DNA of 35,299 bases from contig JALOQY010000020.1 of assembly GCA_025459285.1 (NCBI GenBank), forward strand, positions 1 to 35,299, written 5' to 3'. This stretch comes from Planctomycetota bacterium. Lineage in GTDB: Bacteria > Planctomycetota > JAJSAM01. Below the pieces are notes generated by a model. That model saw nothing but the letters and a program-made list of their open reading frames with translations, was not told where the DNA came from and ran no database searches. The number at the start of each line of letters is the position of its first letter. Position 1 is the first letter of the stretch. Positions 4,590 through 31,814 of the stretch are shown piece after piece. A program made the position numbers and the translations under genes.

Positions 4590-5906
4590 TCAACGCAGAG
4601 GCGAGCGGAAGCGCGCCTCCTCTTCCTCGAGATCGGTGATCCGGGTGGTCACGATGACCATCAGGTTCTCGATCTCCTTCGACGAACCCTTGCGGGAGAA
4701 GAGGAAACCGAGGATCGGGATCTTGGCGAGGAAGGGCACCTCGGACTGCATGTCCACGAGGGAGATGTTCTTGAGGCCGCCGATCACCAGGCTGCCGCCG
4801 TCGGGGACCCGCACCGTCGTCTGGGACTTCTGGATGATGAGCTCCGGGATCTGGATGGTCACCGGAGTGGTGAGGGCGCCGAGAGAGGTCTGGTAGGTGG
4901 GGATCGGGCGGATCAGCGTCGCGATCGTGGGCTGAAGCTGGAGAGTCACGTACTTGCGGTCGTGGGAGATGGTCGGCCGGACGTCGAGTGTGAGGCCGTC
5001 CTGGATGATGCCCACGATGGGGTCGGCGATGAAGGCGGTCTGCGCCACCTCCACGTCGAAGTCCTGGATGAACGAGAGCTGGTTGACCAGCGTGATGTTG
5101 GCGCGCTGGGTGTTGTAGACCGTGAGGCTCGGCGCCTGGAGGAGCCGGCCCTGGCGGGTCTTCTGAACGGCGCGGACGATGAGGGAGATGTCCGTGTCGT
5201 CGATCATGGTGTACTGGATGATGGCGCCGCCGAGCGGGGAGAGGATCGAGCCGAGGGCCCGGTCGAAGATCTGCTCGGTGCGGCCGCGGTAGTCACCGTC
5301 GCCGAAGTCGTTGTAGAAGATGCCGGCGGAGGGCTTGGAGCCGGATGCGGAGGGGAGGCCCGGGCCGCTGTTGTCGAAGCCCGCGGACGCCGAGTCTTCC
5401 AGACCGTTCGTGACGTCATCGAGATTGACCAGCGGGCCCTTCTCGCCGCCGAGTCCGCGGACGTCGACCCCGATGTCCTGGAGGAAGTCGTCGCTGACGG
5501 TGAGGAAGCGGGTCTCGATGGTCACCACGAGGCCGGCGAAGCGGCGCAGATCGTTGAGGAACCGTGCGATCTCGGCCTGGATCTCCGGGGTGTGGTTGAC
5601 GACGAGCTTGTCCTCGCCGCTCGGCTGGATGCTGAAACCGCCACCTTCCCACGACTCCGGCTCGATGTTGTCGATGACGAGCTGCATGAGGTCTTCGACC
5701 CCGCCGCCGAAGATCTGTTCGCCTTCCTCGGCCTTGCCGAAGAGGGGCTGGCTGTCGTCGATTTCGGCGCCGGCCGGCTTCAGGATCAGGTTCGGGGCGA
5801 TGAAGTTGGTCAGCTTGATCGTGAGGTCGCCGACCGGGTGGACGCGGAGGATGGCCTTGCCGCGCGCGCCCTCGCGGTTCGTGATGAAGACCACGCCGTT
5901 ACGCAT
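4590..5906 (-). CDS. Secretin C-terminal portion (GspD/PilQ-like); probably the 3' part of a gene interrupted at about 5900-5925
   Basis: Secretin-like C-terminus VRVPDGGSLVIGGLKNISLVDMQSEVPFLAKIPILGFLFSRKG; co-linear with the C-terminal half of 16038..18587. ATG at 5906 overlaps the upstream ORF stop by 8 nt. Confidence 0.88.
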   Translation of the reverse strand: MRNGVVFITNREGARGKAILRVHPVGDLTIKLTNFIAPNLILKPAGAEIDDSQPLFGKAEEGEQIFGGGVEDLMQLVIDNIEPESWEGGGFSIQPSGEDKLVVNHTPEIQAEIARFLNDLRRFAGLVVTIETRFLTVSDDFLQDIGVDVRGLGGEKGPLVNLDDVTNGLEDSASAGFDNSGPGLPSASGSKPSAGIFYNDFGDGDYRGRTEQIFDRALGSILSPLGGAIIQYTMIDDTDISLIVRAVQKTRQGRLLQAPSLTVYNTQRANITLVNQLSFIQDFDVEVAQTAFIADPIVGIIQDGLTLDVRPTISHDRKYVTLQLQPTIATLIRPIPTYQTSLGALTTPVTIQIPELIIQKSQTTVRVPDGGSLVIGGLKNISLVDMQSEVPFLAKIPILGFLFSRKGSSKEIENLMVIVTTRITDLEEEEARFRSPLR

Positions 5907-7755
5907 GGGACTCGAATTCGAGGGAGGTGACGGTCAGCGTGACCGGCGCGGCCTCGAGGTCCGACTTCACCTTGTCGTCAATCACGATGTTGATGTTCTT
6001 GAGCTGCCGCAGGACGTCGAGGGCCTCGGGCATCGTGGCGTTCTCGAAGGAGAAGCTCACGATCTCCTGCTGGAGCCGGTTCTTCAGAGCCTGATCGGCC
6101 GGGTCCATCTCGGAGGAGATGTCGAGGTCGGTGAGGGCTGCCGCGCGGCGGCTGATGCGGTCCCACTCGCGCTGGTTCGGCCACTCGAGCGGCCGGTCGG
6201 ACCACGGGATCGTCGTGTCGCGGATGTCGATGCGCCACTCGCGGAAGCGTTCCTTGGTGGCGCGGAGGAGGCTGTCGGACATCGCGAGGTGGCGGGCCCG
6301 AACGGACTGGTCGAGGATCTCGCGGGCGCGGGCATTCATGGGATCGAGGCTCAGCACCTGTTCGGCGAGACTCTCGGCGAGATCGAACCGCTCGTTCTCG
6401 AACGCATCGATCGCCTCGGTCAGGAGCTTGTTGATCCGATCCTCGGCGGCCTGCTTGCGCTTCAGTTCTTCCTTGCGCACGTCGTCGAGGGCCTGGCGCG
6501 CACGGTCCTTGGCGAGCAGCTCTTCGTACTTGACCTTGTCCTGACGGCAGCGGAACAGGAAGTCGTTGGCGTCGCTCTTCATCGTGCCCCAGTCGATGCC
6601 GTAAGGGGCGTTGTCGATGATGGTGAGGACGTTGTCGAAGTTCTTGATCGCGTCGTCGTAGAGCTTCGCGTTGTAAGCCTTCTCACCCTCGCTGAAGTAG
6701 TGGGCGGCCTGAGCCTTCGCCTCCTGGATCTTCACTTCGTGGAGGCGCTGGAGTTCGGTCTGCGCCGAGGGGATCTCGCCGGCCCGACGGCCCTGGGCGG
6801 CGAGGATCTTCTGGTACAGCTCGATGGCTTTCTGGTTGTCGGGCTGGCGCTCCAGGGCCTTGAGGATCCACTCCTCGGCCTCGGGATAGCGTAGCTCGCC
6901 GAAGTGGGTCTCGGCCTGGCCGACATAGTAGTTGACGAGGTACTCTTCGTACTGGAGTTCCACGCGCTTCCGCTCGGCCAGCTCACGCATCCGCCGGTCG
7001 GCTTCGCTCTCGTAGGCCGGCGGCGGAGGCGCCACGGGCACGGGAGGAGGAGCCGGTGCGACGACGGGGGGAACCGGCTCGACCGTCGGGGCGGCAGGAA
7101 CCGGAGGCGGAGGGGTCGGCTCGGGAGCGGGCGGAAGGGGCATCGGCTCGACGACCGGGGCGGGCCCGGGCATCGGGGCGGGCTTGCCCGGATACTTCGC
7201 GGGCTCGACGCCGGCCGCGGGGCCGGTGGCCTTCGGCTGGAACGCCGGGTACTTGGCGGGCTCCACCGGGCCGCCGGCGGGGGCGGCACCCGCGGCGGGG
7301 GCCGCGGGGTACTTGGCCGGCTCGACCCCGGGTGCGGAAGCGGGCGCCGGGACGTAGGGTGCAGGAACCGCCGGCACCACGGGCTCCGGGACGACCGGCA
7401 GGTCCGGCGCGGGCGCGGCCGGCACGACCGGCGCCTCGGGAACCGCCGGTGGAGCCGGGACGGCGGGGACGATCGGCGGTTCGGCAGGCTGCGGAGCCGG
7501 CACGGGCGCGCTGCCCGGCCGGTCTTCCATCCCCTGGTCCTTCATCAGGCGGGCGACGTACTCCTCGGTCGTGTAGGACCGGGGCGGCATCGTCGGCTCG
7601 CCACCTTCAGGCAGGTCGGTGGTGGTCGTACCCTTCGCCACGACGGGCCCCGAGGCCTTGTCCGGCGGGGCAGGCTTCTTGGGAGGCCCCCCGCAGGAGA
7701 AGACGAGCAGGGCGACGAGCGTCAGGAGGGTGAAGGCGGTCAGCAAACGCGGCAT
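5899..7755 (-). CDS. TPR-containing, proline-rich lipoprotein, N-terminal portion of a secretin
   Basis: Start corrected to ATG 7755 (AGGAG upstream); lipobox LLVFSCGG; Pro-rich linker; TPR-like helices; ends in an N-domain-like segment (FSFENATMPEALDVLRQLKNINIVIDDKV...VTLTVTSLEFES) that stops where the intact paralogue continues. Confidence 0.83.
   Translation of the reverse strand: MPRLLTAFTLLTLVALLVFSCGGPPKKPAPPDKASGPVVAKGTTTTDLPEGGEPTMPPRSYTTEEYVARLMKDQGMEDRPGSAPVPAPQPAEPPIVPAVPAPPAVPEAPVVPAAPAPDLPVVPEPVVPAVPAPYVPAPASAPGVEPAKYPAAPAAGAAPAGGPVEPAKYPAFQPKATGPAAGVEPAKYPGKPAPMPGPAPVVEPMPLPPAPEPTPPPPVPAAPTVEPVPPVVAPAPPPVPVAPPPPAYESEADRRMRELAERKRVELQYEEYLVNYYVGQAETHFGELRYPEAEEWILKALERQPDNQKAIELYQKILAAQGRRAGEIPSAQTELQRLHEVKIQEAKAQAAHYFSEGEKAYNAKLYDDAIKNFDNVLTIIDNAPYGIDWGTMKSDANDFLFRCRQDKVKYEELLAKDRARQALDDVRKEELKRKQAAEDRINKLLTEAIDAFENERFDLAESLAEQVLSLDPMNARAREILDQSVRARHLAMSDSLLRATKERFREWRIDIRDTTIPWSDRPLEWPNQREWDRISRRAAALTDLDISSEMDPADQALKNRLQQEIVSFSFENATMPEALDVLRQLKNINIVIDDKVKSDLEAAPVTLTVTSLEFESHA
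7130..7340 (-). repeat. Degenerate tandem repeats encoding (G)VEPAKYP in the Pro/Ala-rich linker
   Basis: Three VEPAKYP copies: GVEPAKYPAAPAAG, PVEPAKYPAFQPK, GVEPAKYPGKPAP. Approximate boundaries. Confidence 0.75.
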
Positions 7756-7853
7756 ATCAAGCGTCTCCTGTGCAGCATTCCGGATGCGAACACCCCGCAG
7801 GGTGCGCGCTGCGCCTCTGTGCCCAAATGAGGTATGCCCTCGACGAGGCGGCA

Positions 7854-7882
7854 ACTCTAGCACCGCCCCCGGGGGCTGTCAA
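7854..7882 (-). promoter_or_regulatory. Sigma70-type promoter for the split secretin gene
   Basis: Minus strand TTGACA (7877-7882) - 17 nt - TAGAGT (7854-7859), about 100 nt upstream of ATG 7755. Confidence 0.65.
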
Positions 7883-7907
7883 ATCGAAAGCAAGCGGAGC
7901 GAAACGA

Positions 7908-9650
7908 TCACTTGTCATTCTGGATTCCGAGGTTATGACGGAACCGTGACACTTCGAGACGGTCGGCATCCGTGACCGCCGCGGCGTCCGCGCGGGCCAG
8001 CAGGGAGGCCGCTTCGTCGATGCGACCCTGGTGGTGCCGGAGGACGGCGAGCATGAGCCAGGTCCCGGTGTCCGGGACCACTTCCGCGACATGGCGGGAC
8101 GCGACCCGATCGGCTTCGGCGAGGTCGGGGACGAGCAGCAGCGCCTGGAGCCAGAGGTCGAGGACCTTCGCTTCCCGGAGGCCGGAGTCGAAGGCGCGGC
8201 CGAAAGCCCGCGCGGCGTCCGGCCAGTGCGCCGAGTGACGATGGGCCCGGCCGAGCCAGAAGGCCACGGAGGGATTGGCGGGGGCCTCGGCGGCCAGTTC
8301 CAGGAGGCCAGCCTCGGCGGCGGGGTCGCGGCCGACGACGGAGGCGAGACGGTCGAAGCGGGCCGCAAACCGACCGTCGGGGGAGGGGAGGGCCTCGTTC
8401 TCGGCCCACGGGAGAACCCGCAGGCGCGAGCGCCCGATCCCGGCGGCGTAGGGGAAGCCGGCAAGCTCCGGAAGGCCCGTCCCGACGGGCTCGGCCAGCG
8501 GGGCGAGGGACCGGTAGCGCTCCATGGCGGCGGCGAGGGCGACGGGGACATCGGGTCGCGATGCTTCCTCCCGGGGATCCGCGGCGAGGTCGTAGCACTC
8601 CGTCCGATTCCCGCGAACGAGCTTCACGGTCCCCTCCCGCGCGGCGAAGAGTTGGGCCCAGCCCATGCGCCGGTATCCATAGAGGGTCTCGGAGCACAGC
8701 GGTCCGTCACCGGCGGGGCCGTGGAGGAGCGTCGAGGACGTGGTGGCGGCGGCGCCGGCGGCCTCGAGGATCGCCGTGGCGACCGATCCGAGGCCCACCG
8801 GGTCGGCGCGGGCGGCGCCGGCGGGGAGGCGGCCGGGCCACCGGAGGAGGAGGGGAACCCGGAGCGTGGCCTCGGTGAGCAGGTAGCCGTGGGTGGCCTC
8901 GCCGTGCTCCCCGAGCCCTTCGCCGTGGTCGGATGCGAACAGGACGAACGTGTCCGGTTCATGGCCTGCGGCATGGAGCGCGTCGAGGAGGACGCCGAGA
9001 CAGGAATCGGCGTAGGCGACTTCTTCGGCATAGGCCTCGGGCGTTCCCGGGGCCGCGCCGCGGCGGAACGCCGCCGGGGCCTCGTAGGGGTCGTGGGGGT
9101 CGAACAGGTGGACGAAGAGGAAGAACGGCCGCGGCGAGGAGGCGAGCCAGGAGGCGGCGGCGCGGGCCGTATCGCCGCCGGCGCGTTCGGCGTAACGGAC
9201 CTCTCCAGGGACGGCGGAATCCGGACCGTCGTAGACCGAGAAGCCGGCATCGAGGCCGGTGCGCGCGGCAAGGACGGACGAGGAGACGAAAGCCGCCGTG
9301 GTGTAACCGCGGGATTGCAGCTCCTCGGCGACGGTGCGAAACGGCCGGTTGGCGGCCGGAGGGAGAGGGCGGGGAGGATCGTTGTCCCGGAGGTCGTGGG
9401 ACGGCGGGGGAAGTCCCGTGAGAATGGTGGCGTGGGCCGGGAGGGTGAGCGGGCACGGCGTCACGCAGGTCTCGAAGCGGACACCTTCGGCAGCGAGGCG
9501 ATCGGCGCGCGGCGTGCGCGACGCGGCGTTCCCGTAGCAGCCGAGCGCGTCGGCGCGAAGGGTGTCGATGGAGACGAGGAGGATCGAAGGCGGAGGACCA
9601 GCACCGCAACCTGCGGCGAGACACGCGAGGAGGAGGATCGTCCGGAACAC
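7908..9650 (-). CDS. Sulfatase-like (alkaline phosphatase superfamily) lipoprotein with C-terminal TPR-like region
   Basis: Lipobox LLACLAAGC; SILLVSIDTLRADALGCYG; CPLTLPAHATILTG; FASDHGEGLGEHGE; C-terminal helical repeats. Confidence 0.88.
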   Translation of the reverse strand: MFRTILLLACLAAGCGAGPPPSILLVSIDTLRADALGCYGNAASRTPRADRLAAEGVRFETCVTPCPLTLPAHATILTGLPPPSHDLRDNDPPRPLPPAANRPFRTVAEELQSRGYTTAAFVSSSVLAARTGLDAGFSVYDGPDSAVPGEVRYAERAGGDTARAAASWLASSPRPFFLFVHLFDPHDPYEAPAAFRRGAAPGTPEAYAEEVAYADSCLGVLLDALHAAGHEPDTFVLFASDHGEGLGEHGEATHGYLLTEATLRVPLLLRWPGRLPAGAARADPVGLGSVATAILEAAGAAATTSSTLLHGPAGDGPLCSETLYGYRRMGWAQLFAAREGTVKLVRGNRTECYDLAADPREEASRPDVPVALAAAMERYRSLAPLAEPVGTGLPELAGFPYAAGIGRSRLRVLPWAENEALPSPDGRFAARFDRLASVVGRDPAAEAGLLELAAEAPANPSVAFWLGRAHRHSAHWPDAARAFGRAFDSGLREAKVLDLWLQALLLVPDLAEADRVASRHVAEVVPDTGTWLMLAVLRHHQGRIDEAASLLARADAAAVTDADRLEVSRFRHNLGIQNDK

Positions 9651-9701
9651 GCCGGCGATGATGGGGAAGGGCTGTCACCCGGCGGTCATGCGCGGAAACG
9701 A

Positions 9702-9731
9702 CGCGGGGCGCGGCAGGTGCCGCGCCCCGCG
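9702..9731 (-). terminator. Hairpin terminator downstream of the Exb/Tol operon
   Basis: Near-perfect long inverted repeat CGCGGGGCGCGGCA GG TGCCGCGCCCCGCG, 23 nt past the stop of the last ExbD gene. Weak U tract. Confidence 0.55.
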
Positions 9732-9753
9732 GGGATGAAGGTTTCCGGATCCG

Positions 9754-10266
9754 TCAGCGATCGCCGACGTTCCGCTCCGAGTCCGGGTCGCCCGGTCCGG
9801 AGTGGGGCCGCCCGGGCGGAGGGGCACCGACGAACGTGATGTCCTTGATGTTCGCCTTCATGAAGGCGTCGATCGTCCGGATCACGTGCTGGTGGGGGAC
9901 CCAGGCCCAGGCATTGATCTCGCCGGGGATCTCGTCGTTTTCGGCACGGATCGCCTTGATCCGCTGGTCGAGGAGCGCGAAACCCTCGTCATCGACTCCG
10001 ATTTCGGCGTCGAGGAGCTTGACCCGGGTGCGGGTGTCCTCCTCGTGCCGCTTCAGTTCGACGACGATCTTCGGCTTCTCCTCCAGCTTGATCTTGGTCT
10101 TCGCGAGGCCGCGGTCCTTCGGCAGGAAGGCCGCGACTTTCCGCTCCAGCGCCTTGAACTTCATCGCGCACATGAAGAAGATGATGAGCTGGAACGTGAT
10201 GTCAATCATCGGGGTGAGATTGACTTCCATGTCCCCGCCGCTGTCCGGCATCTTGCCACGCGCCAT
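9754..10266 (-). CDS. ExbD/TolR-like protein (second of two)
   Basis: MEVNLTPMIDITFQLIIFFMCAMKF, the ExbD/TolR N-terminal TM segment with conserved Asp. Confidence 0.9.
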   Translation of the reverse strand: MARGKMPDSGGDMEVNLTPMIDITFQLIIFFMCAMKFKALERKVAAFLPKDRGLAKTKIKLEEKPKIVVELKRHEEDTRTRVKLLDAEIGVDDEGFALLDQRIKAIRAENDEIPGEINAWAWVPHQHVIRTIDAFMKANIKDITFVGAPPPGRPHSGPGDPDSERNVGDR

Positions 10267-10311
10267 ACTCTGCTCCTTCCCCGGGGTGCCGGGGAACAGG
10301 CTAGCCGTATT

Positions 10312-10800
10312 CTACTTCACCTCGAAGTCCGCCGTCGCGAATTGCAGCTTGTAGATCCGGACGGAGGGGTCCGCGCAGGCCTGCATGACCCACTGGACCT
10401 CTCGCCAGCGGACTTCCCGGTCGCACCGGATGAGGACGAAGATCTCGCTGGGCTGGTTCGGGTCGTTCTCGTCGCGCTTCGTCTCGGCGTGGGTGAAGAG
10501 GACTTCCTTCAGGTTCTCGAGGTTGTAGATCTTCCCCTTGATCTTGACCACGATGTCCTTGGTCGTCGCCCAGTCATCGGCCTTGTTGATGTTGACGATG
10601 ACGCGCTTGTCCTTCTCGTCGGCCTTGTCCTCCACGGCCTCCGTGGAGAGGGGAAGCTTCAGGTTCTCGATCTCCTTCTGGGTCAGGTCGGTGACCACGA
10701 GGAGGAAGATGAGGAGCTGGAAGACGATATCGATCATCGGCGTCATGTTGAAGCCGAGGTCGGAGTTGCCGGCGCTCATGCTGACGTTCGACTTTGCCAT
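10312..10800 (-). CDS. ExbD/TolR-like protein (first of two)
   Basis: LGFNMTPMIDIVFQLLIFLLVVTDL; periplasmic domain with IVVKIKGKIYNLENL and VLIRCDREVRWREVQWVMQAC. Confidence 0.92.
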   Translation of the reverse strand: MAKSNVSMSAGNSDLGFNMTPMIDIVFQLLIFLLVVTDLTQKEIENLKLPLSTEAVEDKADEKDKRVIVNINKADDWATTKDIVVKIKGKIYNLENLKEVLFTHAETKRDENDPNQPSEIFVLIRCDREVRWREVQWVMQACADPSVRIYKLQFATADFEVK

Positions 10801-10831
10801 GGCTGCTCCTTAAAGCGGCCGACCCAGCGTC

Positions 10832-11542
10832 CTAGGTGGAGGACTGGGGACGGAACCGCTCGATGAGATCGGCGGCGATCGCCGTGAGTTCAACGGTGAG
10901 CTTGATGACGCGGTTCTTGAAGAAGAAGAAGAAGAACAGGCCGGGCATACCCACCATCAGGCCGAACATGGTCGTGATGAGCGCCACCGCGACGCCGCTC
11001 GACAGGTCGGCCGGGGTGACCGTCGCGCCGAGCCGCGTGATCGTGTCGAAGGCGCCGATCATGCCGAGCACCGTCCCGAACAGTCCGAGCAGGGGGGCGA
11101 TGTTGGAGATCATGGAAATCCAGCTGATCTTCTGCTGCAGCTTGAGGCTCTCCTCGTTGGAGGTATCCTCCACGGCCTTCTCCATGGCGGAGAACCCGGC
11201 GTTGATCTTGGGGAGGGCCGCGGCGAGCATGTTCGTGAGGAAGTTGGGCTCGGACTCGCACAGCTCGAGCGCGTCCTGGTACTCCTCCTCCTCGAAGAGG
11301 GCCTCGATCTCGTCGATGAGTTCCGGCGGCGCGATCTTGGTGCGCCGGATCGTGACGAAGTGCTCGATGGCGAGCGCGAGGGAGGCGATGGAGAGGCCGA
11401 TGATGATATAGCCGCACCACCCGCCGCCCACGATGATGTCGCCGACCGTCGACATGGCCTGCTTGCCGCTGCCGACCTGGGCGAGCGCGGTCCCCGCCGA
11501 GAAGAGCAGGGCAATCGCGGTCAAAGACACGAGCTTCTTCAT
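10832..11542 (-). CDS. MotA/TolQ/ExbB proton channel family protein
   Basis: Start corrected to ATG 11542 (AGGAGA upstream); signal MKKLVSLTAIALLFSAGTALAQ; TolQ/ExbB core ISNIAPLLGLFGTVLGMIGAF and VAVALITTMFGLMVGMPGL. Confidence 0.93.
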   Translation of the reverse strand: MKKLVSLTAIALLFSAGTALAQVGSGKQAMSTVGDIIVGGGWCGYIIIGLSIASLALAIEHFVTIRRTKIAPPELIDEIEALFEEEEYQDALELCESEPNFLTNMLAAALPKINAGFSAMEKAVEDTSNEESLKLQQKISWISMISNIAPLLGLFGTVLGMIGAFDTITRLGATVTPADLSSGVAVALITTMFGLMVGMPGLFFFFFFKNRVIKLTVELTAIAADLIERFRPQSST

Positions 11543-11626
11543 GCTTCTACTTCTCCTAAAAGTTGCACCTGACCTTACGGAAACCTTCATCTTCCGGTAA
11601 CCCTGTCGGGCCCGGCCAGCAAAATC

Positions 11627-12778
11627 TCATTTCCTCGCCCACTCGGTCTCCGGGTAGTACTGCCGGAGTTCCTTCTTCGCCTGCTCGGCCAGCCGCTTGT
11701 TCCAGTCGCCGCCGAGCTTCGCGAGGGCCAGGGACTTGAGCCACAGCGCCCGGGCGACCTCGCGGCGAGCGGAGAAACAGGTGACCTCGGCCTCGGTGAA
11801 GCTGAGAAGGGCGTCGCGGGGTTTGTCGTCGAGGAGGCATCGTCCGAGACCGTTCAGTACGGCGGCCTTCACCTGGTCTTCCTGGGGGTACTTCGCGGGG
11901 AGACCGGAGAAGTAGTCCTTCGCGCGGTCCCAGTCCTGCTTCGCGCCGGAACTCTCGGCCCACGCGACGCGTGCCCAGCCCTGCTCGACCACGGCGTCGA
12001 TTTCCGCCGCCCGCAGCTCCTTCTGCCACTTCGCGGGTTTCGCGAACCGGAGCTCGCGCTGGGCCAGCGCGACCACGTTGTCGAAGGCGGTGACCGCCTC
12101 GGCGTTCTTGCCCTCCGCCATGAGGATGGTCGCGAGGAGGCGCGCCCCCCGTACCTGCCAGAGGGGGTTCTTGATCGTCTCGCCGGTCTTCTGGATGGCC
12201 TCGGCGGCCGTGCGGGCGCCGTCCCAGTTCTTCTGGAGGATGCAGACGTCCGCGATGCCGCCGCGGATCTCCTTGAACCAGAGCGACTTCGGGTTCGCCT
12301 TCAGGGCCTCCTCGAAGGCGCTCAGGGCTTCCGCGAGGCGGGAGGTCTCCTGCTGTCCGAGGGCGAGGAGCGCCTGTCCCTTCCGGAGGGCGGCGGCCTC
12401 GAGGAGCCACGGCCGGGCGCGCCCGGCGTCCACGGCGTTCTTCGCGCCGTCGAAGTCGGAAATCGCCGCGGCCCACTGTTCGTTCCGGAGGTTCCGGAGG
12501 CCGTCGAGGAACACCTTGGGGGCGTCGCCGTAGATCAGGTCGTCCACCCGCGCGCCTTCCTTTTCCTGGGCGGTCTTGCCGCCGCGGAGGGTGTACTTCA
12601 CCTTGTCGTAGGTCGCCTCGTCTACCCGGATCCGCTCCATCTTCTGGGGCTTCCCGTCGTCGTCGAAGAACCGGAGGACGTCTCCGTACTCCCGGTCGAT
12701 CGTCTCGTCCTGGGCCAGGACGGAGGCCGGGACGGCGGCGAGGAGCAGCACGATCGCGATCGATTGCAGGGTCTTCAT
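11627..12778 (-). CDS. Exported repeat (TPR-like) protein in the Tol/Exb operon
   Basis: Signal peptide MKTLQSIAIVLLLAAVPASVLAQ; helical repeats (AAISDFDGAKNAVDAGRARPWLLEAAALRKGQALLALGQQ...); directly follows the 989-aa ORF's stop. Confidence 0.8.
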   Translation of the reverse strand: MKTLQSIAIVLLLAAVPASVLAQDETIDREYGDVLRFFDDDGKPQKMERIRVDEATYDKVKYTLRGGKTAQEKEGARVDDLIYGDAPKVFLDGLRNLRNEQWAAAISDFDGAKNAVDAGRARPWLLEAAALRKGQALLALGQQETSRLAEALSAFEEALKANPKSLWFKEIRGGIADVCILQKNWDGARTAAEAIQKTGETIKNPLWQVRGARLLATILMAEGKNAEAVTAFDNVVALAQRELRFAKPAKWQKELRAAEIDAVVEQGWARVAWAESSGAKQDWDRAKDYFSGLPAKYPQEDQVKAAVLNGLGRCLLDDKPRDALLSFTEAEVTCFSARREVARALWLKSLALAKLGGDWNKRLAEQAKKELRQYYPETEWARK

Positions 12779-12781
12779 CGT

Positions 12782-15691
12782 CTACCTCCCGAGGTTCCGC
12801 AGTTCGGTCTGCGCCTTCTCGTTGACGGCCGCGAACTCCTTCTCGAGGCCGGAGTTCTTGAGGACACCGAGGCTGCTGAAGCTCTTGTACTGCTCGACGA
12901 CGTTCTTCAGGGCCTGGGGGTCACGGAAGGCCATTCCGTAGTTGAGCCAGATCTCGTGGAGGAGGAGTTGCCACTTCCACCAGTCCGCGGTGTACATGCG
13001 GGACCGGTCGACCTTCAGGAGGATCTTGATGAGCGTCATCCCGCGGACCATGTCCTCCTGCTGCATGAGCTTCAAGTAGGCCTGCGCGAGGCCGTACATG
13101 ATGCTGGGGACGGCCCGGATCTTCTTCATGAGCTCCTCGAGGACGGCCTGGGGGAACTCCGACATCTTGAGGATCTCCATCACCCGGGCGCGCGCGCCGG
13201 CGTCAGGGATCAGGAGTCGCTCGAAGACGTTCTTGGCGTCGGCGAACTTGCCCTGGGAGATGTAGATCTCGGAGAGCATGACGGAGATGCCGTCCTCCTT
13301 CTTCACGATCTCCTTCTTCTCAGGGGTCTCGCCGGCGATCGCGTCGAGGCGCTGGTTGTAGATCTCCAGCGCCTTCGTCAGCGCCAGCTCCGCCAACGCC
13401 CACTCCTTCAGCAGGTAGTACCACCCGCCGATCGTCTCCCACTCCTCGGCGGTCACGCGCTCCTTGCTCTTCATGTACTCCGCCATGTAGTCCGCGGCCT
13501 TCTTCAGGGCGGCCTGCCAGATCGGCCCGCGGTCGGCCTTGTCGGGGGCTTCGTCCGCGGCCCGCCGGAAGGCGTTCCCGACGGCGTAGAGGGCGGAGGC
13601 CGTGCCGGACCACTCGGCGTACTCCGAGCGCATCCGGAGGGCTTCCTGCTCGCCTTCCTCGAGCTTCTTCAGCTCCACGAGGGCCAGGACGCGGGCGAGT
13701 GCCACGAGGGGGAACCACGACCTCGTGTTCTCGTCGGCGTAGGTCTTCTCGAAGCCCTTGAGGATATCGAGGACCTTCGAGGGCTCCTTCATGCGGGAAT
13801 GGCACATGGCCGAGTAGTAGGTGCAGATCGCGAGGGACTGCTGCCGGTTGGCCTTGCGCTCCGGGTCGGTGGTCACGTTCTCCGGGTTGTCGATGAACTT
13901 CCGGACGGAGTCGAAAGTGGAGAGCGCCTTCCTGTAGTCCTCGGTCTTGAAGAGGACCTCTCCGATGCGCGCGAGGGCCTTCTCGTGCAGGATGGAAGTC
14001 TTCTGGACGCCGGCCAGGCGCTCCATGGCGAGCTTGTAGAATTCGGCGACCTTCTCGGCGCCCGAGCCCCGGGCGGTGTCCGCATCGTCGATGTAGTCGG
14101 CGCCTTCGAAGTACTGGAGGTCGATCGACTTCGGGTGTTTCGGGTACTGCTCGGCGAAACGGGACCGGGCCTTCTTCTTCAGTTCCTCGAACCACGGGTC
14201 CTGCGTGACCGCGAACTGGCCCGTGGCCGCTCGATAGCGGTAGTAGGCCGCGTTGCCGGCCTCGGCCTCGTCGATCTTCCGGAAGGTGGCTTCGATGTGA
14301 TCGAAAGCGTAGTAGGCCTCCAGGTACTTCTCCGCGCGGAGGTAGCAGTCCCCGATCTGCATCCAGGACGGGATCGTGAACTGCTTGAGCTGCGCGTCGC
14401 CCTCCGCTGCCGCGATGACCTGCTGGAAGGAGCGGACGGCGTCATTCCACTCCCGCGACGTCTTGCGGCCGAGGGCGGCCTTCATGAGGACGTCGGGGGG
14501 GAGGGAGAGCGATCCGCCGTGCTCGGAGATGATCTCGTTGATGAGGGCGTTGGCCAGGTAGTTGGTGCCGGGGGCCCAGGTCTCCGTGCTCATCAGGCTC
14601 TCGGCCTTCGTGCTGATCTCGGTGGCCCTCTCGAGCGCTCCCTTGGCATCGCCCATGTTCTTCAGGATGCGGGCGTAGGCGAGGAGGGCGCGGTGGCCGT
14701 AGTTCCGGGACAGGACGTCGGGGAGCCGCTGGAGCATCTCCACGGCCTTCTTCGCCGCCTCGTCGCGGAAGTCGCGGCCGTCCTTCACGCCGAGCTGGTC
14801 GCAGTACTCGAAGAGCTTCCAGTAGGCCTGGAGGTAGAGGTCGCTCCACTTGAGGTAGTTGCCCGTGTCCGTCTTGGGATCGGGCACCGGGTAGCCGAAG
14901 GCGGTGGAGAACCACTCCATCGCCTCGTCGGGCTGCTCCAGGTCCTGACAGGCGAGGCCCAGGTAGAAGTAGGCGTAACCGCCGAGGATGTTCTCCTCGT
15001 TCTCCCAGACGAACTTCGTCAGCTTCTCGATGGCCCGCTCCATCGTGCCCTGGCGCTCGGCGCCGCCGGGAGTGTAGAGCTGCCCCTTGTTGTAGTGGGT
15101 GGCGGCCTCGAAGAAGCGCGCCCGCCGGGCATCCCAGTCCAGGTCGCGGAAGCGGTCGGACTCGGGGTCGAGGTCCTCGAGTTTCTTCTCCATCGAGTCG
15201 GCGGCGCCCTTGAAGAGGTCCGTGGCCGAGTCGTAGGCGTCCTCGGCCTTCTTGCGGAACTCCTCGGCGCGGCCGGGGTCCTTCTCCTTCTGGTCCGAGA
15301 GGAACGACCCCTTGCTCTGGAGCATGATCCCGATCTCGAACTTCGCGTCGGTCTGGCGCGGATGGGTCGGGTAGCTCGACAGGAACTGCGTGAAGCCGGC
15401 CTCGGCATCCTCGAATCCCTTGAGGATGTCATCGGGGTTCTGCTTCGGATCGTTCCGGATGTCGAGCACCTTGGCCTTCTTGAGCAGGGCGAGGCCCAGC
15501 TCCCCGTTGGCCCGGTCCTCGTTGCTCCGGGAGGTGTCGCGGATGATCGCCTCGAACTGCTCCTGGGCGAGGTCGTAGTACTTGAACTCGACCAGGCCCT
15601 GGGCGAACTCGAAGTCGTCCTTGCGCGCGGCGCTGGCCGCGGCGGCCAGGGCGAGCAGGAACACGAACCCGACGGCAATCGTGCGTTTCAT
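12782..15691 (-). CDS. Large exported TPR-repeat protein (about 969 aa)
   Basis: Start corrected to ATG 15691; signal peptide MKRTIAVGFVFLLALAAAASA; many A/L/Y-rich helical repeats (FAQGLVEFKYYDLAQEQFEAIIRD..., LAGVQKTSILHEKALARIGEVLFKTEDYRKALSTFDSV). Confidence 0.87.
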   Translation of the reverse strand: MKRTIAVGFVFLLALAAAASAARKDDFEFAQGLVEFKYYDLAQEQFEAIIRDTSRSNEDRANGELGLALLKKAKVLDIRNDPKQNPDDILKGFEDAEAGFTQFLSSYPTHPRQTDAKFEIGIMLQSKGSFLSDQKEKDPGRAEEFRKKAEDAYDSATDLFKGAADSMEKKLEDLDPESDRFRDLDWDARRARFFEAATHYNKGQLYTPGGAERQGTMERAIEKLTKFVWENEENILGGYAYFYLGLACQDLEQPDEAMEWFSTAFGYPVPDPKTDTGNYLKWSDLYLQAYWKLFEYCDQLGVKDGRDFRDEAAKKAVEMLQRLPDVLSRNYGHRALLAYARILKNMGDAKGALERATEISTKAESLMSTETWAPGTNYLANALINEIISEHGGSLSLPPDVLMKAALGRKTSREWNDAVRSFQQVIAAAEGDAQLKQFTIPSWMQIGDCYLRAEKYLEAYYAFDHIEATFRKIDEAEAGNAAYYRYRAATGQFAVTQDPWFEELKKKARSRFAEQYPKHPKSIDLQYFEGADYIDDADTARGSGAEKVAEFYKLAMERLAGVQKTSILHEKALARIGEVLFKTEDYRKALSTFDSVRKFIDNPENVTTDPERKANRQQSLAICTYYSAMCHSRMKEPSKVLDILKGFEKTYADENTRSWFPLVALARVLALVELKKLEEGEQEALRMRSEYAEWSGTASALYAVGNAFRRAADEAPDKADRGPIWQAALKKAADYMAEYMKSKERVTAEEWETIGGWYYLLKEWALAELALTKALEIYNQRLDAIAGETPEKKEIVKKEDGISVMLSEIYISQGKFADAKNVFERLLIPDAGARARVMEILKMSEFPQAVLEELMKKIRAVPSIMYGLAQAYLKLMQQEDMVRGMTLIKILLKVDRSRMYTADWWKWQLLLHEIWLNYGMAFRDPQALKNVVEQYKSFSSLGVLKNSGLEKEFAAVNEKAQTELRNLGR

Positions 15692-15771
15692 GTCACTCCT
15701 CGGATCTGACGGCTCCCGCGAGGTCTCGTCCCGTCCGGGGTCGTCGCCCACATCGACCTGCCCCGGTGTAA

Positions 15772-15805
15772 GCGGACCTTTACGCGCGTGTAAAGCTCGG
15801 TCCGC
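15772..15805 (-). promoter_or_regulatory. Two-tier hairpin in the predicted 5' leader of the TPR/Tol operon
   Basis: Outer GCGGAC (15772-15777)/GTCCGC (15800-15805), inner CTTTAC (15778-15783)/GTAAAG (15790-15795), loop GCGCGT; lies between the predicted promoter and ATG 15691. Confidence 0.45.
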
Positions 15806-15829
15806 GGTGAGGGACGGGGCAAAAACCGC

Positions 15830-15857
15830 ATTGTAGGCAACGGGGTGCGCGGATCAA
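15830..15857 (-). promoter_or_regulatory. Sigma70-like promoter for the TPR/Tol operon
   Basis: Minus strand TTGATC (15852-15857) - 16 nt - TACAAT (15830-15835). Confidence 0.5.
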
Positions 15858-15987
15858 CTATCCTCGGGCCTGGGGTCGGCATGGCTGCCATGTCCATGGC
15901 AAACGCCGTACCGCGACGGGGTCCTTGGCAGGTAACCCCCATGGTACCGCCGGACTTCGCCGCGTCAAGCGTGGAGGAGGCCCGGTG

Positions 15988-16023
15988 AAAAAAAGGGCCC
16001 CGCCGGCAAGGCCGGCGGGGCCC
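15988..16023 (-). terminator. Rho-independent terminator of the second secretin gene
   Basis: 13-bp stem GGGCCCCGCCGGC / GCCGGCGGGGCCC, loop AAG (15995-16023), followed on the minus strand by seven T. Confidence 0.9.
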
Positions 16024-16037
16024 GGGTTCGTCGTGTA

Positions 16038-18587
16038 CTACCGGGCGCCGTAGCGCGGTTCCATCTCCTCGAGGACCAGGATCTTGGCCTTGATGAGGAC
16101 GATGAGATTCCGCCGCGCCAGGAACGTCCCCTTCCGGCTCCAGAAGAAGGAGAGGAGGGGGATCTTGTCGATCCACGGCACGGAGGACTCGAGGCGCTGC
16201 TCCTCGAAGAACTTGAGGCCGCCGAGGAGGAGGATGCCGCCGTCGGGCATGGTGACCGTGGTGCGGACCCGCTGGATGTTGATCTCGGGAAGCTGGATCG
16301 TGACCGGAGGTCCGTTGGCGAGGGTCGTGGTGAAGGTCTGGATCGGGCGCTTCAGCAGCGCCACGGTCGGGCGGAGCTCCAGCGTCACGTACCGGCGGTC
16401 CGCGGAGACGATGGGCGTCACGTCGAGGATCACGCCGTCCCGAAGGGTCTGGACGATCGGGTCGCCGATCTGGGCGGCCTGGGCGATCTCCACGTCGAAG
16501 TCCTGGATGTAGGAGACCTGGTTCAGGACGGTGATGTTGGCCCGGCTGTGGTTGTAGGCCGTCAGCTTGGGGGCCGTGACGATCGTGGCGCGGGTGGACT
16601 TCTCGACGGCCCGGAGCACGACCTGGAGCTGGGTGTCGTCGAGGTAGGTGGCCTGGATCGAGGCGCCGCCCGTGGGGAGGAGGACGTCGGTGCGGCCGAG
16701 GGCCACGTCGAGCAGGTTCTCCACGCGACCGCGGATGTCGCCATCGCTGTTCAGGTTGTAGAAGACGCCGGACTCGCTGCTCGTGCCGATGCCGGCGGGA
16801 GTGCCGGGGGAGCCGGAGAGGACGTCGTCGAAGGGCTGCAGGACGCCCTTGCCGCGGAAGCCGAGGCCGCCGGACTGGTCGCCGAGACCGCGGAGGTCCA
16901 CGCCGATGTCCTGCAGGAAGCTGTCCTCGACGGTGACGAAGCGCGTCTCGATCTGGACCGTGAGGCCGCCCGTCGCGCGGAGGCCGTTGAGGAGGTCCTG
17001 CACCTTGCGGTGCGTCGTGGCCGGGGCCTTGATGATCAGGATCCCGCCTTCGCGGAAGGCCACGTCCCCGCCCGCGTCCCACACCTCGGGATCGATCGAC
17101 GAGCGGATGAGTTCGGCCAGTGCGTCGCCCTCGAACGCCTTCTGGGGCTCGGCGGGCTCTTCCTCGAAGCCGAAGCCGAAGCCACCGGACGGGACGAGGT
17201 TGATGTCCTCACCGGGGAAGGACTGGATGGGGACCGTGAGGTCCTTGACGTCGTAGAGGTCGAGGACCATCTTGCCGAGGCCTTCGGCGGCGGTCCCGAT
17301 CTGGACGACACCCTGCTCGACGCGGTAGGAGAGGCCCTTGGTCAGGGTGATCAGCTCGAGGGCGCTGGCCACCGTGATGCCGTCGGCCTTCAGGGTGATC
17401 GACAGCTCGTCCTCGGTCTTCTCCTCGAAGACCTTGGGGAGGACGATGATGTTCACCTCGGCGTACTCGGCGAGGAACTTGATCGCCTCCTGGAGGGAGG
17501 TGTTCTCGTAGTTGATGTTCACCGTCTTCGCCGCGAGGATGTTCTCGATCTCGCGGGCGCGCGGTTCGTCTCCGCCGGCGAGGGCCCGGCTGAAGGCGTA
17601 AGGCTTGCGCTGCCCCTGGACCTGGAGCCAGTCCTCCGGGAAGATCACGGGCTCCACCTGCGGCATCGCGGAGACCTGCAGATCCTCGAAGGCCCGCTGC
17701 CACTGCTCCTGGAGGTTCCGGCGGGTGACCTGCTCGTCCTGGGCCGACCGGGCCTCACGGGCGATGCGGGTCAGGCGGGCGGCGGTGTCGTTCGTCGGAT
17801 CCAGCACGAGGATCTGCTCGCCATAGGCCCGCGCCACGTCGAACTCCATCCGCTCCATCGCGAGGTTCGCGTCGCGGAAGAGGCCCATGATCTGCGCCTC
17901 GCGCGCCTGCTTCAGGCGCTTCTCGTCGGCCTCCTTCAGGAGGTTGGCCTCGCGGATGGCGGCGTCGCGGCGGTCCTTGTCCGCCTGCACCTTGCGGCCG
18001 CGGGCCGAGGCGATCATGTCCTTCAGCTGCGGCTCGCCGGGATTGAAGTCGCCGTAGTACGGGAAGAGGCCCGCGATCAGGAGGGCCTTTTCGTACTTCG
18101 TGATCGCCTGGTCGAACTCACCCTCGCCCTCGAGCGTCCGGCCGATCCGGGCGAGATCCGAGATCTCGGCCTGGGCGGCCTGACGCTGGACCTGGCGCTC
18201 CTCCACCGAGCGATCCATGGCGGACCGCGCGGTGGCCGGGGCGACGCCGAGGATGGCGCTCGCCTCGTCGAGTCTCGCCTTGGCGGCGGGGTTGCCGGGA
18301 TCGATCTCCAGCACCCGGGCGTAGTTCTTCTGGGCCTCGGCCCAGTCGGCGCGCTCGCGGGCCGCGTCGCCGTACTTCATGAACTGCGCGACGAGGAAGT
18401 CCCGTTCGGTCATCTCGCGGGATTTCTCGCCAGCGGCGGACGCCATGTAATCGGTCCCGCCCGGCGCCGTCGGCGACACGGAGACTCCGCCGCCGTCCGG
18501 GGGTGGGGGGGACTCGCTCCCCGTGGTGCATCCTGCGGCCACGGCCGAAACGAGCACTGCCAGAGCGAACCACCTGAGACCCGTCAT
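16038..18587 (-). CDS. Intact secretin lipoprotein with N-terminal TPR-like region (GspD/PilQ family)
   Basis: Lipobox LVSAVAAGC; TPR-like segment; N-domain INYENTSLQEAIKFLAEYAEVNIIVLPKVF; secretin C-terminus VTMPDGGILLLGGLKFFEEQRLESSVPWIDKIPLLSFFWSRKG. Confidence 0.92.
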   Translation of the reverse strand: MTGLRWFALAVLVSAVAAGCTTGSESPPPPDGGGVSVSPTAPGGTDYMASAAGEKSREMTERDFLVAQFMKYGDAARERADWAEAQKNYARVLEIDPGNPAAKARLDEASAILGVAPATARSAMDRSVEERQVQRQAAQAEISDLARIGRTLEGEGEFDQAITKYEKALLIAGLFPYYGDFNPGEPQLKDMIASARGRKVQADKDRRDAAIREANLLKEADEKRLKQAREAQIMGLFRDANLAMERMEFDVARAYGEQILVLDPTNDTAARLTRIAREARSAQDEQVTRRNLQEQWQRAFEDLQVSAMPQVEPVIFPEDWLQVQGQRKPYAFSRALAGGDEPRAREIENILAAKTVNINYENTSLQEAIKFLAEYAEVNIIVLPKVFEEKTEDELSITLKADGITVASALELITLTKGLSYRVEQGVVQIGTAAEGLGKMVLDLYDVKDLTVPIQSFPGEDINLVPSGGFGFGFEEEPAEPQKAFEGDALAELIRSSIDPEVWDAGGDVAFREGGILIIKAPATTHRKVQDLLNGLRATGGLTVQIETRFVTVEDSFLQDIGVDLRGLGDQSGGLGFRGKGVLQPFDDVLSGSPGTPAGIGTSSESGVFYNLNSDGDIRGRVENLLDVALGRTDVLLPTGGASIQATYLDDTQLQVVLRAVEKSTRATIVTAPKLTAYNHSRANITVLNQVSYIQDFDVEIAQAAQIGDPIVQTLRDGVILDVTPIVSADRRYVTLELRPTVALLKRPIQTFTTTLANGPPVTIQLPEINIQRVRTTVTMPDGGILLLGGLKFFEEQRLESSVPWIDKIPLLSFFWSRKGTFLARRNLIVLIKAKILVLEEMEPRYGAR

Positions 18588-18608
18588 TGACCGCTCCCTT
18601 CGACCCAG

Positions 18609-19517
18609 TCAGTCCTTCGACCTCGGAAGCCAGCGTTCGACATCGGGCGTGTCCGGCGGGAGGACCACCGCTCCCTCGCTCACCACGGGTACCGGAACGG
18701 CCCGTTTCGCGACCACGACTTCACCGCTTTCCGCATTCCGGAGAAGCCTGCCGTCGGGCAGGAACTCCGGCACATCCGTCTCGCGCGTCACGATCTGCCT
18801 CGTGGCGCGCAGACCGGCGAACTTCGAACCGGTCCGGTAATCCATCTCCGGCCGCTTCTCGCCGATCTCGTCGCCCGCGGCCACCGCGAACTCCGCGGGG
18901 GGGCGGGCGGCGACCGCGACCCGGAACCGGGCCCGCCCCTCGGCATCCGACCCGAGATAGGCGAGGGACACCGGCAGGCGATACCGCACGAGTCGCTGCT
19001 CGGCGCCGGCGAGGATGCCCTCGGGTCCGAGGGCGGTCACGCGGTAGACCCGCGATCCCGCCACGGCGTCCAGCGTCTCGTCGCGGAACGTCCGGGCATC
19101 CGGGCCGAGGCGTTCTACCCGGAGGCTCTGGCCATCGTCGGCCAGGCGCACCAGGAGATAACCCGTGGCCGGGAGGCCCTCGGCGTCCCAGCGGAGCAGT
19201 ACGGCCCCGCCCTCCTCCTCTCCGCGCAGGTTTCGCACGGCCGGAGCCGCGGGGTTGACCGCGGTCCCGGGAGCCGTCCGGGAGAAGCGTGGATCGGAGG
19301 CGAAGACCGGTCCCGTCACGCTCGACAGACCTCTCGAAAGAGCGTCGGCATCGCGCATGAGCGCAGTGCCCTCGGCGTCGTCCGGCGCGGACTTCGCTCC
19401 GTCTGTCCCGCCCGCAGGACCGGACGTCCCGAAGGCGAGCCAGAGCGACCCGAGAAGCACGACGGACGCGAGCGCGAGCGCGACGACACCAGCGCTGCCG
19501 CGCGTGTTCACGACCAT
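18609..19517 (-). CDS. Single-TM anchored protein with a fibronectin type III-like segment
   Basis: N-terminal TM GVVALALASVVLLGSLWLAFG; FN3-like PAVRNLRGEEEGGAVLLRWDAEGLPATGYLLVRLADDGQ...RVYRVTALG. Confidence 0.7.
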   Translation of the reverse strand: MVVNTRGSAGVVALALASVVLLGSLWLAFGTSGPAGGTDGAKSAPDDAEGTALMRDADALSRGLSSVTGPVFASDPRFSRTAPGTAVNPAAPAVRNLRGEEEGGAVLLRWDAEGLPATGYLLVRLADDGQSLRVERLGPDARTFRDETLDAVAGSRVYRVTALGPEGILAGAEQRLVRYRLPVSLAYLGSDAEGRARFRVAVAARPPAEFAVAAGDEIGEKRPEMDYRTGSKFAGLRATRQIVTRETDVPEFLPDGRLLRNAESGEVVVAKRAVPVPVVSEGAVVLPPDTPDVERWLPRSKD

Positions 19518-19562
19518 CGTCTGAATGCCCTCGGGTATGCGCCGGAAGAAACCGGTCCGAAC

Positions 19563-19591
19563 CCTATAGGAGAACTGTCATGGGATTGCAA
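19563..19591 (-). promoter_or_regulatory. Putative promoter for the FN3-protein/secretin pair
   Basis: Minus strand TTGCAA (19586-19591) - 17 nt - TATAGG (19563-19568). Confidence 0.4.
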
Positions 19592-19643
19592 CGAAAATGG
19601 GCCCTTCCCGATGTCGGTCGGGGGCCATCGAAGGGGGCGCGGC

Positions 19644-19988
19644 CTACCATCGGACCTCGACGCTGCAGACGGTCGGATCGGTGGTCGCCTGGACCCGGAA
19701 GAGCCGGGGGGCCGGCGTGCGCGGACCGGAAAGCGCGCGCAGCACGCCGGGGAGCAGGTCCCAGGGGATCTCGAACCGGCGGACCGCCGACGGCGGATCG
19801 CCGGCCGCGGGGATGGCCGGAAGAGGGGCGAGCCGCAGATCCTCGGCGGCCCGGAGCAGGGGGTCATCGGCGGGAAGCGACGCGGACCTCGGGGTCTCCG
19901 GGGCGGGCCGGTAGAGCGGCCGGACGACCAGGAGTCCGATGGTGGCGGCCGCGACGAGGGAGGCGAGGAAGACGATCGGGCCCTTCAC
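19644..19988 (-). CDS. Short single-TM protein (114 aa), PilO/GspM-like by size, topology and position
   Basis: GTG start at 19988 overlapping the upstream TGA by 4 nt (GTGA); VKGPIVFLASLVAAATIGLLVVRPLY TM segment. Only in the ORF track as the tail of 19644..21008. Confidence 0.6.
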   Translation of the reverse strand: MKGPIVFLASLVAAATIGLLVVRPLYRPAPETPRSASLPADDPLLRAAEDLRLAPLPAIPAAGDPPSAVRRFEIPWDLLPGVLRALSGPRTPAPRLFRVQATTDPTVCSVEVRW

Positions 19989-21385
19989 CGCTGCACCTCG
20001 AACCGGATGCGCCAGGTGGCGAGCGGCGTCCCGTCGGGAGCCGCCCCGAACTCCGGTGGCCCGTGGGCGGCGAGCGCCGCGCCCCGCTCGCCGGGCGACG
20101 CCGGGTCGTAATCGGGAAGTCGGAGGACGAGTCGGCCCGAGCAGGAGTCGTCCTCCTCGACGACCAGTTCCAGCGCCTCCGCGGACCACGGCGCGGCGGC
20201 GTCCCCGGGGATGCAGGCGAGGAGAGCCTTGAGCGCCCGGGGGAACGCCAGGGACCGGCGGGCGTCGGAAACGGCGGCGCGGAGGCGGGCCACGGACTCG
20301 GCGGACGGCGCGCCCGGGGCGGGGCCCGGCGGGGTACGGCTCTTTCGCAGGTGACCTCCGGCGAACGCCACGGCGAGCGCGAGCCACAGGACGGCGGCGG
20401 CGGCGAAGAAGGAGCGGGAGCGGCCGGGAGGCAGCGAGAGGGTCTCGGGCAGCGGCCGGAATGCCAGGTCGAGTCGGCGGGGGAGGAGAGCGCCCGCGGC
20501 GGCGGCCCCGAGGGCGCCGGGGGCACGCAGGAGGAACTCCTCCGTGCGTGGAGGTTTGACGCGCCCCATGGAGGAGAACAGGGACTCCGCGGGTTCCGTC
20601 GCGACAGGCGGCGAGGGGAGCGTGGCGGCGAGCTTCGCCCGGAGGTCGCCCTCGACTCCGAGGAGGATGATGCGCTCCGGTGCGGCCCGCGCGACGCGGG
20701 TGCGGTGATACTCGATGACCCGGCCGACATCCGCCGTGAAGACGGCGAACCGGTCGGGATCGAGGAGTTCGCGGGTTCCGATCGGCAGGCTCTGCCGCCG
20801 GATGGCCGAGCCGTCGAGGAAGAGGATCGACGTCCACTCGGGGCGGACGTGGAGGATGAGCCCGTCGCCGGCGAAGCCGAGGACCGTCCGGACTGCGGTG
20901 AGGACGGCGTCCTCGGAGAGCACGAGGGACCAGGACCTCGCGCCGGCCGATTCCAGGGCCACCATGAGCCCCTCGACGCGCGCCCGTTCCTCCGCGCAGA
21001 GGAGCCACACGTTCGGACCCGTCCGCGCGTACCGCAGGTCGACCACGTCGGCCTCGGGGCCCACGCGTTCGAGGAGTCCCTCGCGCAACTCCTCGGCGCT
21101 CTGGAGCATCTCCTCCGGGCTGAGGACCACCGTGCCGAAGGAGGGAGCGGGGGCGACGAGGGAGACCACCACGGGGTGGCCGGCGATCCCGCGTCGCCTG
21201 ATGAACGCGGAGACCGCCTCGTGGGCGGGCTTGTCGCCGCGGCGTTCCTCGACCGCCAGTACGGAGAGCTTCCCGTCGGCGGTCCGCACGACGCGTGCGG
21301 CGTGGAGATACCCGGGTCCGGCTTCGATCCCCCAGACGGGAACCGGCGAAGAGGGAGGTGCGGCGGGCATGGAGACAAGGTACAC
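19985..21385 (-). CDS. PilM/GspL-like protein with a C-terminal TM and periplasmic domain (ATG at 21370 is an alternative start)
   Basis: Actin-fold-like opening VPVWGIEAGPGYLHAARVVR...LSVLAVEERRG; FGTVVLSPEEMLQSAEELREGLLERVGPEADVVDLRY; TM FFAAAAVLWLALAVAFAGGHL; coupled to a PilO-like gene. Confidence 0.6.
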   Translation of the reverse strand: MYLVSMPAAPPSSPVPVWGIEAGPGYLHAARVVRTADGKLSVLAVEERRGDKPAHEAVSAFIRRRGIAGHPVVVSLVAPAPSFGTVVLSPEEMLQSAEELREGLLERVGPEADVVDLRYARTGPNVWLLCAEERARVEGLMVALESAGARSWSLVLSEDAVLTAVRTVLGFAGDGLILHVRPEWTSILFLDGSAIRRQSLPIGTRELLDPDRFAVFTADVGRVIEYHRTRVARAAPERIILLGVEGDLRAKLAATLPSPPVATEPAESLFSSMGRVKPPRTEEFLLRAPGALGAAAAGALLPRRLDLAFRPLPETLSLPPGRSRSFFAAAAVLWLALAVAFAGGHLRKSRTPPGPAPGAPSAESVARLRAAVSDARRSLAFPRALKALLACIPGDAAAPWSAEALELVVEEDDSCSGRLVLRLPDYDPASPGERGAALAAHGPPEFGAAPDGTPLATWRIRFEVQR

Positions 21386-24455: not shown

Positions 24456-24540
24456 CGCGGGGCCAGCAAACCGCGCCGCGGGGAGCGGACCAAGCAAAAA
24501 GGTGCAGAGCGGCCGGGCGGGACCATTACCCTCATGCGCC

Positions 24541-31739: not shown

Positions 31740-31814
31740 GGGCCGTTAGCTCAGAGGAAGAGCGCCATCCTCACACGGTGGAAGTCGTAGGTTCAAGTCC
31801 TACACGGCCCACCA
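31740..31814 (+). tRNA. tRNA-Val (anticodon CAC), CCA encoded
   Basis: Manual fold: acceptor GGGCCGT/ACGGCCC; D-arm GCTC-AGAGGAA-GAGC; anticodon arm CCATC-CTCACAC-GGTGG; T-arm GTAGG-TTCAAGT-CCTAC; ACCA end. Confidence 0.95.

Follow-up and report, generated by a model that had tools for sequence, protein, structure and literature searches.

A conserved gene cluster of the Planctomycetota joins two secretin genes to an Exb/Tol motor, and we consider it an evenly balanced question whether this cluster encodes one PMF-energised, secretin-based envelope-spanning complex. Secretin machines are regarded as powered by a cytoplasmic ATPase, and Exb/Tol motors are regarded as serving TonB, Tol-Pal and gliding. 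A conserved cluster that unites a secretin with an Exb/Tol motor would, if the reading is true, provide a new way to energise a secretin. The cluster also names candidate genes in a phylum for which neither the structures that cross the outer membrane nor the proton-dependent uptake of macromolecules have yet been assigned to molecules (PMC5394234).

The cluster is located in a window of 35,299 nucleotides, which is the whole stretch of DNA that was analysed and belongs to a contig of a 5.0-Mb MAG (88% complete; 534 contigs) that named relatives assign to Planctomycetota. ORF and Pfam scans place all of the cluster genes on the minus strand, with bounds at or a few bases off 4590-21385. In the order of transcription, the genes encode a PilM-like protein, a PilO-like protein, an FN3 protein, the secretin S1, a giant TPR protein (TPRL; 989 aa), a smaller TPR protein (TPRs; 383 aa), ExbB, two ExbD proteins, a sulfatase-family lipoprotein and the secretin S2. 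Every component that a sequence-only reading of this DNA had named is present on the minus strand, and the Pfam Secretin, MotA_ExbB, ExbD and TPR profiles identify the secretins, the motor subunits and the TPR proteins. The sulfatase-family gene, which occupies the same place in many relatives, is an addition to that list.

S1 (16038-18587, minus strand) is a TPR-secretin lipoprotein of 849 aa with a Pfam Secretin match (2.4e-25), a TPR match and the lipobox AAGC. S2 is distributed over two ORFs of the window that overlap by eight bases (5899-5906). The N-terminal part (5899-7863, minus strand) is a Pro-rich lipoprotein that contains TPR (TPR_2, 4.2e-7) and the first secretin N-domain, and the C-terminal part (4590-5906, minus strand) contains the secretin domain (Secretin, 2.5e-26). 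S2 consists of one ORF of ~880-1050 aa in the relatives examined, and an alignment to the nearest relative, in which S2 lies in one ORF, shows that the window S2 is without 47 nt at the ORF junction. The earlier description of two secretins thus stands for the number of genes, but the lower gene is broken here; two intact secretin genes in the window are ruled out because the 47-nt deletion splits the lower one. The break is either a natural mutation or an assembly fault. Pfam also recovered the TPR regions that had been proposed for the N-termini of both secretins and for the 383-aa and 989-aa exported proteins.

S1 and S2 form separate clades in the main group of the maximum-likelihood secretin tree (S1, 23 rows, support 99/93; S2, 16 rows, 100/99), and the 4590-5906 part of the window falls in the S2 clade. 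The two supported clades exhibit a similar internal order, which indicates an early duplication after which both copies were inherited together; this split holds for the better-sampled main group and is not recovered among the deeper lineages. Over residues 231-698, S1 matches the Amuc_1098 family NF042912 (2.6e-25) with 88.6 bits, where the cut-off is 750, and is a homologue of Amuc_1098 that stands outside that equivalog. The cluster secretin scores 62.5 bits with the GspD model TIGR02517, far under the cut-off of 351 bits, though the Pfam Secretin profile matched.

The motor is encoded between the two secretin genes. It consists of an ExbB/TolQ proton-channel subunit (10832-11590, minus strand; MotA_ExbB, 4e-25; TolQ, 2e-18) and two ExbD/TolR subunits (10312-10800 and 9754-10266, both minus strand; ExbD, 1.5e-17 and 1.6e-13, respectively). 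The transmembrane Asp of ExbD is found in 127/127 ExbD proteins of the loci described below, and the channel Thr residues of ExbB are found in 54/54 aligned orthologues that are ungapped at those positions. The motor residues are therefore intact and invariant in the aligned orthologues, in line with the motor assignment made from the window. The exported proteins TPRL (12782-15751, minus strand; Pfam TPR) and TPRs (11627-12778, minus strand; TPR_19, 1.1e-8) are encoded upstream of ExbB, with TPRL orthologues directly following S1 across families and TPRs at a conserved position. Downstream of the motor, a conserved accessory gene (7908-9650, minus strand; PF00884, 6.7e-38) encodes a lipoprotein of the sulfatase/phosphodiesterase family with a TPR tail. 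The active-site stretch of this protein reads PCPLTLPAH, not the usual CxPSR sulfatase motif, and its chemistry is uncertain.

What is the nature of the inner-membrane part of the cluster? The PilM-like protein (19985-21385, minus strand; 466 aa) comprises an actin-like PilM domain, one transmembrane segment and a short PilN-like periplasmic tail. By itself, it gave no direct Pfam or NCBIfam match. Profile-profile alignment of its family with the Amuc_1101/PilM-type proteins of the same locus in relatives gave an hhalign probability of 98.9% (E 2e-17). In other families, the PilM homologues of the locus match PilM PF11104 (6e-27 in L046), and their best NCBIfam match is the Amuc_1101 family NF045709 (1.6e-42 to 2e-77; 261 bits against a cut-off of 650). 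The PilM-type locus profile matches both PilM (6.6e-64) and PilN (4.4e-5) of the Myxococcus T4aP machine structure 3jc8, and these homologues are therefore PilM-PilN fusions. The PilO-like membrane protein (19644-19988, minus strand; 114 aa) has a GTG start that overlaps the PilM stop. Its position, transmembrane segment and coupling to PilM are conserved in relatives. The ORF, though short, is real, which bears out the PilM-like/PilO-like pair of the sequence-only reading. An AF2 model of the L109 orthologue at the PilO position, not of the 114-aa window protein itself, retrieved Amuc_1100 first (6lad, 6kny and 6laf) and T4aP PilO next in Foldseek (pLDDT 72; 12 sequences). Profile and fold matches together identify PilM, PilN and PilO inner-membrane ring components of the T4aP type.

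The third member of the inner-membrane part is a bitopic FN3 protein (18609-19517, minus strand) that is located at the PilP/GspC place. Its AF2 model (pLDDT 74.9), which like the other structure model was built on a shallow alignment, has a transmembrane helix and an FN3 domain and ends in a C-terminal beta domain. Foldseek and hmmsearch of the PDB gave FN3 proteins only and no PilP or GspC match; the position and the C-terminal beta domain suggest that the protein may play a PilP/GspC-like role. Several members of the order to which the window belongs encode PilM and the C-terminus of the FN3 protein in one ORF of ~830-880 aa just upstream of S1 (L040, 3915-6392; L041, 2615-5101; L044, 16903-19533).

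The cluster is widespread in the phylum. S1 has a homologous match in 59/59 relatives sampled. Gene order was compared in 119 loci, some of them duplicates, that were picked by similarity to S1 and consist of 40 stretches from the sampled genomes and 79 named Planctomycetota loci from a public-genome scan; these loci were read with profiles built from the window genes, and gene calling was simple and profile-based. The order (UDG)-PilM-PilO-FN3-S1-TPRL-TPRs-ExbB-ExbD-ExbD(-ExbD)-(sulfatase)-S2 recurs across dozens of families. Where a locus extends 6.5 kb or more past S1, ExbB was found in 24/33 genome loci and 44/58 named loci, and two or more ExbDs were found in 22/33 and 44/58, respectively, although the two sets share some loci and are not fully independent. 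In most of the loci whose sequence extends far enough, the ExbB gene and both ExbD genes lie between S1 and S2, with orientation and order unchanged. Non-conservation of the neighbourhood, which would have spoken against the proposed machine, was thus not seen.

Conservation differs between the parts of the cluster. Many family members lack an adjacent PilM-PilO-FN3 set, and the arrangement S1-TPRL-TPRs-ExbB-ExbD-ExbD-S2 is kept where PilM-FN3 is absent from the locus (e.g. L048 and L054, and L140 as far as its stretch reaches). This arrangement is the more stable core, and the PilMNO part is not universal. Profile reading detected no ExbBD near some S1 loci (e.g. L125, L157 and L071-L073). 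L065 and L066, which belong to one family, contain three tandem TPR-secretin genes after PilM, and ExbBD was undetected in the stretch.

The cluster overlaps with several known systems and is identical to none of those compared. It shares PilM, PilN (fused here to PilM), the PilO fold and a secretin with the PilMNOPQ set of the type IVa pilus. However, the planctomycete cluster has an FN3 protein at the PilP place and TPR-secretin lipoproteins, and PilB, PilC and pilin are missing from the locus. A secretin, at the level of the Pfam profile, is also shared with the type II secretion system, in which GspL and GspM correspond to PilM-PilN and PilO, whereas GspE, GspF and GspG-K are not found in the planctomycete locus. 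The TolQ/ExbB and TolR/ExbD proteins with invariant channel residues are common to the Tol-Pal and TonB-ExbBD systems. In contrast to those systems, the planctomycete cluster encodes two or more ExbDs, and Pfam and NCBIfam scans found no TolA/TonB, TolB, Pal or TonB receptor among its genes. The Myxococcus AglRQS-Glt gliding machine resembles the planctomycete cluster in that a single TolQ is paired with two TolR homologues and accompanied by TPR proteins. For AglRQS-Glt, by contrast, neither a secretin nor PilMNO is known.

The closest counterpart of the secretin module is found in Akkermansia muciniphila. Amuc_1098 is an abundant outer-membrane secretin of 907 aa with N-terminal TPRs (PMC4960237) and is encoded in a 'type IV pili' cluster together with Amuc_1099-1102 (PMC10688800). 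A TPR-secretin, a PilM-like protein (Amuc_1101) and a PilO-fold protein (Amuc_1100) have counterparts in both clusters, the first two with scores far under the curated Amuc cut-offs, whereas the planctomycete cluster additionally encodes the ExbB-ExbD-ExbD motor, the two large exported TPR proteins, the sulfatase and the second secretin. No match to Amuc_1099 or Amuc_1102 turned up. A TPR-secretin with PilM/PilO partners is a known kind of the PVC superphylum. The sequence-only reading, which presented the machine as a candidate undescribed one, is accordingly too broad for the PilM-PilO-TPR-secretin part, which is homologous to Amuc_1098-1102. The open literature searched did not describe any Planctomycetota cluster that combines a secretin with ExbBD, subscription papers and preprints lying outside the scope of the search. 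As far as found, the joining of a PilM/PilO/S1 module to an ExbBD motor, to two large TPR proteins and to a second secretin is therefore undescribed.

The energy source usual for such machines is missing from the locus. The T2SSE and T2SSF profiles, each of which recovered its own family in control loci, gave matches in 0/119 loci. A pilin-signature scan, which picked up six pilins in a pair of control loci, detected none in the 119 loci or the window. The reported absence of a GspE/PilB-type ATPase, a GspF/PilC platform and a pilin thus extends from the cluster and its flanks to the related loci. A fragmented ordinary T2SS or T4P with ATPase or pilin genes next door was not seen in the 119 loci. 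Elsewhere in the genomes, the search for GspE and GspF that had been suggested gave the opposite result, as T2SSE, T2SSF and further PilMs were found in 59/59 genomes.

On the one-complex reading, PilM in the cytoplasm, the PilN-like tail, PilO and the FN3 protein would together make up a T4aP/Akkermansia-type ring in the inner membrane, and the two TPR-secretin lipoproteins would serve as channels or rings of the outer membrane. Within the periplasm, the exported TPR proteins may bridge or gate the secretins. The ExbB-ExbD-ExbD genes, bracketed by the two secretin genes, are placed to energise the assembly, and their proton channel would replace, or act beside, a cytoplasmic ATPase as the energy source. 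Proton flow through ExbB would move the periplasmic domains of ExbD, which may act on the TPR/secretin assembly and in this way cause the channel to open or a large substrate or fibre to be driven across the envelope. The union of all parts in one complex, power supply by ExbBD and the movement of macromolecules or fibres are inferred, in the case of PMF energisation from homology. The PMF-energised secretin/TPR complex proposed from the window is favoured by the conserved order, the intact motor residues and the lack of a local ATPase, whereas it is weakened by a second PilM'-pseudopilin cluster nearby in some relatives and by the observation that none of the 59 genomes is without T2SSE or T2SSF. 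Furthermore, PilM-PilO-FN3 is often non-adjacent and ExbBD is undetected near some S1 genes, so that the grouping of all parts in a single complex does not hold without exception. The ExbBD motor could be accessory to the secretin system. The most far-reaching version, a phylum-wide machine in which a pilus-type PilMNO/secretin scaffold has lost its cytoplasmic ATPase and is driven by ExbBD via the giant TPR proteins and moves macromolecules or fibres through two specialised secretins, is rather unlikely.

The chief rival explanation holds that the cluster is the outer-membrane/periplasmic half of a dispersed T2SS/T4P-like system, in which the pseudopilins, a second PilM/PilO, GspE and GspF are encoded elsewhere and assemble with S1/S2, while ExbBD has an accessory task such as remodelling of the wall or gating of the secretin. 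This explanation is a real possibility, although we rate it short of even. Pseudopilins near S1/S2 leave room for it in five genomes (G002, G015, G021, G033 and G049), where a second conserved cluster, FHA-FHA-PilM'-PilO'-TPR-pseudopilins (N_methyl), is located 9-24 kb from S1/S2. This second cluster (L181, 652-17688; also L177, L176, L178, L179 and L187) encodes two FHA proteins, PilM', PilO', a 941-aa TPR membrane protein and several pseudopilins, with a 1,700-1,800-aa protein in some cases, and no secretin gene was seen in it within the stretches read. In addition, orphan tandem T2SSE/T2SSF loci exist, and the T2SS platform PulF has been reported as an ion channel, which provides a precedent for ion gradients in the T2SS (PMC10790770). 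In the window genome, the second cluster is on contig C39. Its linkage to S1/S2 was, however, not seen in other long contigs (e.g. G024, G037 and G051) or in Pla86. The Pla86 genome is complete; its S1 locus at about 2.32 Mb contains no PF11104 PilM, other PilM-type genes are ~3 Mb away and the nearest GspE-type T2SSE is ~450 kb away. Other secretins of the window genome (contigs C21, C189, C428, C60 and C177) could serve a dispersed system, and two co-inherited secretins with a conserved motor do not suit a standard T2SS.

It is improbable that two independent units merely lie side by side, one a pilus-like TPR-secretin/PilMNO system as in Akkermansia and the other an ExbBD-TPR system for outer-membrane stability, nutrient uptake or surface motility. 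L065, L066 and L071-L073, in which PilM with secretins or secretins alone occur and ExbBD is undetected nearby, would suit such a division, as would the many loci that keep ExbBD without PilM; the placement of ExbB and both ExbDs between S1 and S2 in most sufficiently long loci argues against it. Another proposal concerns function rather than architecture and overlaps with both the one-complex and the dispersed-system readings, namely that the machine underlies, at the molecular level, the crateriform structures of planctomycetes or their CCCP-sensitive uptake of macromolecules. Crateriform structures, whose molecular make-up is uncharacterised, join the outer membrane to the inner one and can bear fibres, and macromolecule uptake was abolished by CCCP in experiments in Planctopirus and Gemmata (PMC5394234). 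A phylum-wide envelope-spanning secretin/PMF complex would suit such structures, and the link is attractive. Nevertheless, we judge it very improbable: no sequence link to the cluster is available, Planctopirus and Gemmata may lack the ExbBD form, four complete or near-complete genomes of families f5 and f27 gave distant secretin matches only, and in three of these four the stretches read showed no ExbB.

The surroundings of the cluster are also partly conserved. Asparagine-synthase (AsnB) and large TPR genes are found between the two clusters in G002, G015, G021 and G049, but not in G033, with a glycosyltransferase in most, and AsnB/TPR-type genes of like kind flank the window cluster at 25.9-31.6 kb. 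A tRNA-Val (CAC) gene is located at 31740-31814, just after a large plus-strand TPR gene, and the G002 order, in which the FHA-PilM'-pseudopilin cluster comes next, is not continued in the window past it. On contig C60 of the window genome (L186, 4715-9080), another ExbD gene is found ~2-3 kb from the gene of a 429-aa secretin. The immediate neighbours of the cluster are conserved and housekeeping-like: a HAD hydrolase (3737-4468) directly follows S2, and a uracil-DNA glycosylase, a DHH/NrnA-like protein and a radical-SAM methylthiotransferase are encoded upstream (21434-24701).
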